A DNA stretch of 64,000 nt. Source: Vibrio sp. 05-20-BW147 (lineage in GTDB: Bacteria; Pseudomonadota; Gammaproteobacteria; Enterobacterales; Vibrionaceae). Below are positions 33,742 through 35,181 of the stretch, piece after piece (position 1 is the first letter of the stretch; every line of letters starts with the position of its first letter). The stretch covers positions 186,001-250,000 of the forward strand of contig NZ_SZTO01000001.1 of the NCBI RefSeq assembly GCF_013369385.1. Reading direction: 5' to 3'. A program made the translations under genes and the position numbers. The notes beneath the pieces are model-generated. The model made no database searches, was not told where the DNA came from, and saw nothing but the letters and a program-made list of their open reading frames with translations.

Positions 33742-35181
33742 ATGCCAAAACTAAGCAAGTTTTTTATAACCCTATTTGCCCTTTTTCTGTTAATTCCAAC
33801 GCATGCGTTAGCAATGCAAATCTATATAAGGCTTCCAAGTGGAGCAAACATCACACTGGACGTCGAGGAGTCGGATAGTATTGAGAATGTGAAAGCGAAG
33901 GTTCAAGATAAAGAGGGTATCGCGCCAGATGAACAAAACCTAGTTTTTTCAGGTATTACACTCGAAGACGGAAGGACGCTGTCCGACTATAATATTCAGA
34001 AAGAGTCACTTCTCTATCTTCTGATTAAAAATACTGGTCCTGTCGAACCACCTACTTCAGAACCAACAGCTCCAACAACGAGCGGCCGTTCTGATGCGCT
34101 AGATGCACAAGAGGTTGTACGAATTCATAATATGAGTACAGCCAGACAACAGGGCGGGCTACTTTTGTCTGCGCTTCCCACCGCTGAGCCAATTTCGAAC
34201 CAATCTAAGGCTTCGTTCAATAGTTTCAATATCTTAAACCAAGATGCTGCACAAGGAACTCGCTTCTGGTCAAACTTTACTTGGCAGGACTCGACAAAAA
34301 AGCGAGTTGATTCCCTAGCGGGTTACAAAGCGACAACTAAATACTTCGTATTTGGGATGGACACTTCTGTTAGTTCAACCTCTGTCACAGGGGTCGCATT
34401 CGGTGTATTTGAAACGAAACTATCCGCAGAACACTTAGCCAAATCAAGTGAGACGGGTTTTAGTGCACTCCCATATTTCCAAAGTTGGATTAACAATAAG
34501 CTGTTTTTCGAGTTGGCTGCTGGCAATCAACAGAGCACTATTGATATTGAATCGCTTCCAGAAGGAAAAAAAGGTAAGACTGACGCAAACACTTGGTTAG
34601 TATCTGGGGAATTGCAGCAAGAGGTGCTCCGCAACAACTCAGTTCCGCTAACATTATTTTTAAACTCAGATTGGTTGTATACCCACAAAACAATAGATGC
34701 CTATAGGGACTCAACGGATGTTTTTTATGATGAAAGTACGTACAGAACCAGTGTTGTTAGTCTTGGTAGTGAGGCAGTGTATCGCTACGACTTTCAAGAT
34801 ATGTTTCTCGAGAGTACTTGGGGGCTAAAGTACCGAAAAGGTTTACTCAGTGATGGTACTGAAGAACTTGATGCTCTGGTTACATTGCTTGAACTCAATC
34901 TCAATTGGCAGCATCTTGTCACTCATTTAGAGTATGAGTATTCAGAAAGCGATACGACACGTACAAAACGGCTTCAAATCGCACTAGAGTATAAGTCTGC
35001 TGTGAGTGAAGATTTTAATGTTAATACCTGGAGTAAAATGTCCGCAGCTGATGAACTCGATCTCGAACTTGCAACGATTGGCACGAGCTTTGTTCACATA
35101 GACTCAGGGATAAGTGCAGGTTTGACTGTGCCAGTGATCACTTCTGGGGAAATCAGATTGTTTCTTGATATCCCGCTGTGA
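33742..35181 (+). CDS. secreted ubiquitin fused to an autotransporter-like beta-barrel
   Basis: A 479-aa protein. Residues 1-24 are a signal peptide (hydrophobic core FITLFALFLLIP, cleavage motif HALA). Residue 25 onward is ubiquitin: MQIYIRLPSG, IENVKAKVQDKEGI, LEDGRTLSDYNIQKES; by hand alignment 48 of the first 72 positions equal human ubiquitin. Gly75-Gly76 is replaced by GP, Lys48 by Ile, Lys11 by Ala and Leu8 by Pro; Lys27, 29, 33 and 63 remain. A Pro/Thr linker (~101-115) and an amphipathic helix (~118-145) lead to a ~300-residue C-terminal domain of alternating strands resembling an autotransporter barrel, ending RLFLDIPL. The start was chosen because it yields the signal peptide; the frame is open 35 codons further upstream. 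Function unknown; host-interaction is inference. Confidence 0.85.
   Translation: MPKLSKFFITLFALFLLIPTHALAMQIYIRLPSGANITLDVEESDSIENVKAKVQDKEGIAPDEQNLVFSGITLEDGRTLSDYNIQKESLLYLLIKNTGPVEPPTSEPTAPTTSGRSDALDAQEVVRIHNMSTARQQGGLLLSALPTAEPISNQSKASFNSFNILNQDAAQGTRFWSNFTWQDSTKKRVDSLAGYKATTKYFVFGMDTSVSSTSVTGVAFGVFETKLSAEHLAKSSETGFSALPYFQSWINNKLFFELAAGNQQSTIDIESLPEGKKGKTDANTWLVSGELQQEVLRNNSVPLTLFLNSDWLYTHKTIDAYRDSTDVFYDESTYRTSVVSLGSEAVYRYDFQDMFLESTWGLKYRKGLLSDGTEELDALVTLLELNLNWQHLVTHLEYEYSESDTTRTKRLQIALEYKSAVSEDFNVNTWSKMSAADELDLELATIGTSFVHIDSGISAGLTVPVITSGEIRLFLDIPL

Follow-up and report, generated by a model that had tools for sequence, protein, structure and literature searches.

In this study, a gene that joins ubiquitin to an autotransporter-type beta-barrel was identified in a 64,000-nucleotide stretch of Vibrio sp. 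05-20-BW147 (contig NZ_SZTO01000001.1, positions 186,001 to 250,000; hereafter the window, whose numbering is used throughout). The gene (33742-35181) is an uninterrupted open reading frame (ORF) of 479 residues with both domains in one frame, in which a signal-like stretch stops before Met1 of ubiquitin, Gly-Gly is absent and the ubiquitin C-terminus is not free. With moderate confidence, we propose that this ubiquitin-autotransporter fusion is likely a tiny autotransporter which holds a non-conjugable ubiquitin outside the cell as a binding ligand. Ubiquitin is usually viewed as a tag that works inside eukaryotic cells; its retention on modular anchors at the surface of many bacteria would, if true, represent a new extracellular, conjugation-free use of the fold. 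The question of what bacterial ubiquitin is for would become testable by simple gene removal, and a natural fast-folding domain on an autotransporter would probe how barrels pass their passengers.

The ubiquitin family PF00240 matches residues 27-96 (E 1e-19, 70.5 bits against a curated cut-off of 25.4), and the Autotransporter beta-domain PF03797 matches residues 175-378 (E 3.5e-14, 53.6 bits against 26), together with the NCBIfam family autotrans_barl TIGR01414 (23.6 bits against 16); by these profile scores, the match of the ORF to both domains is far beyond chance. The original prediction, made from the sequence alone, had placed a ubiquitin from residue 25 onward with 48 of 72 positions as in the human protein, a count reproduced here exactly. 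It had also put a signal peptide ahead of ubiquitin, and the N-terminus is indeed signal-like, as in type Va autotransporters, under a crude hydrophobic-core and -1/-3 rule: HALA is followed at the residue 24/25 junction by MQIY, which fits a predicted signal cleavage at Met1. The proposed Pro/Thr linker, helix and C-terminal beta domain were likewise borne out by the sequence, an AlphaFold2 model and both barrel families. The chain ends in Leu.

Structure prediction, which had been suggested as a check, returned a ubiquitin fold and an autotransporter-like barrel, so that neither domain modelled as anything else. The AlphaFold2 model of the whole protein has a mean predicted local distance difference test (pLDDT) score of 70 and a predicted template modelling score of 0.60, with block means of pLDDT of 80-93 for the ubiquitin part (residues 21-90) and 68-79 for a helix at 122-143, followed by the barrel, which is weakly predicted from about residue 372 and falls below 50 at residues 449-479. 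Superposed on ubiquitin chains, the model deviates by 0.6-1.1 A across 74-77 residues. From the helix onward the barrel superposes on autotransporters, with fold matches to EstA, NalP, EspP and AaaA; the superposition begins at model residues 113-121 in 14 of the 17 listed autotransporter rows, and the helix lies inside the superposed range on NalP, EspP, EstA and AIDA-I. About 14 strands are modelled, with low confidence at the chain end; type Va autotransporters have a 12-strand barrel with a helix through the pore. The window protein resembles this class in its signal-like N-terminus, passenger, helix and C-terminal beta-domain, but differs in having ubiquitin as passenger, a divergent barrel end and a last residue of Leu. 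Export by Sec would be followed by the predicted cleavage before Met1, after which the helix is predicted to sit inside the barrel pore with ubiquitin outside. Surface display or release had been offered as the natural reading, and display is supported as such a reading.

The fusion is no lone case: like fusions, and fusions to other anchors, were found in many bacteria. A scan with one genome per species yielded 176 stretches encoding relatives, the best 80 of which, with the window gene and a further Vibrio locus (G159), make up 82 loci; since they were found through peptide words of the query, diverged copies are missed, conserved copies are favoured and the counts are no census. Two duplicate loci (L082, which copies L081, and L084, which copies L049) were left out, as were six second copies of ubiquitin found in L041, L046 and L077. 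Because L074 lacks the length needed for column counts, 81 domains remain of the 82. Upstream hydrophobic stretches occur in 75 of the 82 loci, 74 of them with a -1/-3 motif abutting ubiquitin by the crude rule; 68 of the 75 have Ala immediately ahead of ubiquitin, and ubiquitin position 1 is Met in 81/82. Seven loci fail the rule (L011, L042, L051, L055, L073, L077 and L078), which asks for 9 of 12 positions; L042 and L073 reach 8 of 12, and L011 lies near a contig end. Judged by record title, 26 of the 80 loci lie outside metagenome bins and uncultured records, and 25 of these span six phyla: Pseudomonadota, Bacillota, Bacteroidota, Actinomycetota, Planctomycetota and Campylobacterota. The remaining one, L054 from Prochlorococcus AG-418-O03, is presumably a single-cell genome. 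The domain is rare in whole-genome samples: with the window genome included each time, matches above the Pfam cut-off were seen in 2 of 369 genomes of the class (five at E 0.001), and the phylum sample gave 2 of 398. The further ubiquitin matches in these samples (L087 and L111) stand outside the 82. Plasmid records gave three matches, all confined to the ubiquitin part, among them an Ig-like protein headed by ubiquitin in Pseudoalteromonas from abalone and a ubiquitin family protein in Ruminococcus albus 7, while phage records gave no match. Conservation of ubiquitin positions 57-64 was set aside as evidence, the loci having been found with query words such as SDYNIQKE and KAKVQDKE, among others.

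Several members of the collection deserve mention in their own right. Four adjacent genes of Pedobacter cryoconitis (L046) each encode a signal-like sequence and a single ubiquitin ending in LVLR, LALR or MIRP, without an anchor. Two records (L054 and L065) of the free-living cyanobacterium Prochlorococcus carry ubiquitin-autotransporter genes. In a Nitrospinota metagenome-assembled genome (L051), four ubiquitins in tandem end in RGG and have no signal; they may stem from eukaryotic contamination of the bin.

Anchors were counted at set level in 84 proteins, comprising 81 of the 82 loci, the window protein (P0001) and two database relatives (P0033 and P0071), with 21 proteins scanned singly. 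Up to 42 of the 84 carry a recognised anchor of one of four kinds: Autotransporter in 27, SLH in 7, a type IX secretion system (T9SS) tail in 4 and IPTL-CTERM in 4 by Pfam (5 by NCBIfam); immunoglobulin (Ig), cadherin or fn3 repeats occur in several. Clustering of tails of at least 40 residues (seven shorter ones were kept out) gave a group of 26 which includes the window barrel, smaller groups and 19 singletons; the seven proteins in the cluster of an SLH protein (L010) all come from Bacillota, and the three in that of a T9SS protein (L026) from Bacteroidota. An N-terminal extension resembling SxxxGxxFTSS, a pattern drawn by eye, precedes the signal in seven proteins (L004, L005, L017, L019, L033, L048 and L052), and it is shared by barrel proteins (L017 and L048) and IPTL-CTERM proteins (L005 and L052) alike. 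Judging from these sequences, the front of the proteins looks common and the anchor exchanged. The anchor fits the lineage and a like domain sits on other anchors in other lineages; surface retention is therefore taken as the selected property. We consider the chances about evenly balanced that, across many phyla, a non-conjugable eukaryote-type ubiquitin behind a signal peptide, joined at Met1, has been repeatedly fastened to each lineage's own surface anchor (autotransporter barrel, SLH, T9SS tail, IPTL-CTERM tail or giant adhesin) as a general extracellular recognition tip, with the Vibrio gene as one mobile form.

The description of the domain as near-canonical proved to be only relative. 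Identity to human ubiquitin ranges from 46 to 74 of 76 across the 81 bacterial domains, with a median of 64, and the window ubiquitin, at 49 of 76, is the fourth lowest, with L8P, R42N, I44V, K48I and V70L among its substitutions. After ubiquitin position 72, NTGPVEPP replaces LRGG, which puts G and P at positions 75-76 of a chain that continues, so that the C-terminal Gly-Gly of a conjugable modifier, free or freeable, is lacking. Gly-Gly at 75-76 was seen in three of the 81 domains (L051, L058 and L078) and is missing from the other 78, the window's included; conjugation is therefore not the job. Bacterial systems of the Bub/Bil type have a conjugable C-terminus and enzymes. The window protein shares the ubiquitin fold with them, but it has no Gly-Gly and is the only PF00240 match in its genome. 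The UQ_con family (PF00179) had no match in this genome and none in the control genomes either, in a search for conjugating enzymes that covered this family. A putative tethered, non-covalent ligand is a better reading than conjugation. The protein would make non-covalent contact on the surface of the cell that produces it, its partners being protists or bacteria which may recognise a ubiquitin-like face, and we infer the same action for the barrel, SLH and adhesin forms, which would hold ubiquitin at the surface of the producer.

The first rival to be weighed is that the protein acts like BfUbb of Bacteroides fragilis, being displayed, released by proteolysis of the linker and so brought to rival bacteria which it inhibits. 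BfUbb has a signal peptide that ends directly before Met1 and no terminal Gly-Gly (PMC3352274, PMC5705921); the window protein likewise lacks Gly-Gly, and its signal is predicted to end at the same place. In 2017 B. fragilis was described as one of few bacteria with a eukaryote-like ubiquitin (PMC5705921). An antibacterial role is kept as the first rival because this secreted protein, whose mature start is that of human Met1, antagonises other strains of its species (PMC5705921); a patchy distribution and a putative integrative element (see below) would also suit a competition gene. However, BfUbb is described as a free protein of 76 residues ending in Cys (PMC3352274), whereas the window protein has no counterpart of this Cys and continues into linker, helix and barrel, and up to half of the 84 proteins carry recognised anchors. 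Any cleavage site in the linker of the window protein would be hypothetical, and we regard such a role as a tentative possibility. A 2024 study reportedly dealt with the target of BfUbb.

Alternatively, the barrel might be an ordinary outer-membrane pore whose ubiquitin hangs on the periplasmic side and serves for plugging or binding, which we find doubtful given that Pfam and NCBIfam agree on an autotransporter barrel and that the preceding helix falls within the superposed range in most of the autotransporter comparisons above. Other anchors of the family face outward.

A mimic of ubiquitin addressed to ubiquitin receptors of protists or animals, which it would reach in vesicles or when the bacterium is taken up, gains from the retention of L8, I44 and V70 together in 42 of the 81 bacterial domains, and from the L017 domain, which is identical over 72 of 72 residues to one repeat of P0077 from Cyamophila willieti. 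On the other hand, this face is altered in the window protein and its two closest relatives (L8P in all three), and across the set conservation of the patch is slightly below that of the remaining surface positions (0.74 versus 0.83, p 0.03; both position lists drawn up by us). Mimicry was demoted as the main reading because the binding face of the window protein has changed, and it now appears improbable. That ubiquitin is simply a robust small fold, serving as spacer or passenger without a specific partner, would suit the very varied contexts across the 84 proteins but is very improbable in view of the median identity to human ubiquitin and of its being better kept than any other part in the three closest proteins, bearing in mind that the search words favour conserved copies.

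Two close relatives share the whole plan. P0033 is 72% identical over 100% of the query, and P0071, a 'ubiquitin-like protein' of Vibrio sp. TRT 2004, is 57% identical over 98%; both have the same architecture and both Pfam domains, and both are database entries without an assigned function. Residues 120-479 matched only the window's own protein and these two. Among the three proteins, conservation is 83, 68 and 69% in ubiquitin and 72, 58 and 58% in the barrel. The suggested search for the same fusion in other vibrios showed it to be rare: in a survey of 227 genomes of the genus, four had a match, the window's among them, and two an intact ubiquitin-barrel gene. Of the other matches, one (G068) has a ubiquitin and a barrel called Autotransporter by Pfam, another (G166) has barrel pieces only, one with a stop codon, and in a third (G159; L093, 2842-10419) ubiquitin heads a frame of 2525 residues. 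The first 604 residues of that frame match NHL and cadherin/Ig-like repeats, and the gene adjoins apparent response regulator and kinase genes. L049 of the wider scan is the locus of Vibrio hepatarius HF70.

The eukaryotic origin proposed for the window ubiquitin is plausible, although the tree of 93 ubiquitin domains (10 eukaryotic) over 72 columns lacks resolution, with one of 89 inner branches starred. The number of transfers, one or many, and the donor were dropped as questions to this tree, for which 72 columns are too few. The barrel label changed 20 times on the tree versus 25.5 in shuffles. An oomycete polyubiquitin (P0068) carries D16 and S22, which occur in 57 and 50 of the 81 bacterial domains, respectively; this is only a lead. 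In searches of an open-licence library, we found no account of a natural ubiquitin-autotransporter fusion or of an anchored family. The sequences are public as database entries with both Pfam domains, and it seems that the account is what is missing.

The setting of the gene (Table 1) suggests how it may have arrived. The acetate kinase gene ackA, named from sequence, spans 19812-21005 and ends in PTNEEFVIAQQSVELL; direct repeats copy its 3' end and a stretch downstream, with a partial copy at 27935-28076, and the ubiquitin gene and a neighbouring ORF sit between two of them. A whole-genome repeat search gave four hits, all at this locus, the copy at 35303 not being among them. Repeats of the ackA 3' end and an adjoining tyrosine recombinase gene are a sign of an integrative element, which is consistent with site-specific integration into a gene's 3' end; such an element would carry the ubiquitin gene, and the repeat array at 19812-35379 is an apparent integration hot spot. 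Genes in 28.6-35.2 kb have a GC content of 40-43%, versus 45.6% for the window. Among five relatives compared, similarity to the window ends one base past the ackA stop in two (G223 and G222, ackA 99% identical), where other genes follow; in a third (G097, L132) the ackA end recurs about 8 kb downstream with different genes between, and the copy is single in the two others. The ackA stretches of these relatives hold no clean empty site with both flanks, the window's far-side genes lying outside them, and thus define the border on the ackA side only. The neighbourhood of dbpA was rejected as an empty site, as dbpA has other neighbours in five relatives.

Table 1. Features of the ubiquitin-autotransporter gene and its surroundings (window positions)
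Feature	Position	Strand	Basis
3' end of ackA, presumed attachment site	20946..21006	+	repeat comparison
Repeat of ackA 3' end	29147..29206	+	repeat comparison
Tyrosine recombinase, Phage_integrase PF00589	31168..31749	+	E 1.3e-18; ends at repeat 31750
Repeat of ackA 3' end, presumed left border of ubiquitin-gene module	31750..31823	+	repeat comparison
Neighbour ORF between the same two repeats as the ubiquitin gene	32098..33318	-	no Pfam match
Terminator-like hairpin and T run, just 5' of ATG	33698..33727	+	weak: 3 such sites in the stretch versus 1.8 expected (shuffles)
Signal-like sequence, residues 1-24	33742..33813	+	sequence; hydrophobic-core and -1/-3 rule; last residues HALA abut ubiquitin Met1
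Ubiquitin domain, residues 25-96 (ubiquitin positions 1-72)	33814..34029	+	PF00240 E 1e-19; 48/72 identity; model
Pro/Thr-rich linker, residues 97-121	34030..34104	+	sequence; pLDDT <50 at 98-120
Helix, residues 122-143, likely pore-spanning autotransporter helix	34105..34170	+	model; fold superpositions
C-terminal beta-barrel, residues 173-479	34258..35178	+	PF03797 E 3.5e-14; model and fold matches
Degenerate repeat (76%), presumed right border of module	35303..35376	+	repeat comparison

Promoter-like sites within the stretch numbered 5, versus 4.2 in shuffles, and Rfam gave no match at E 0.1 over 31000-37500. The terminator-like hairpin ahead of the ubiquitin gene might act as an attenuator or else mark where a transcript from upstream ends.
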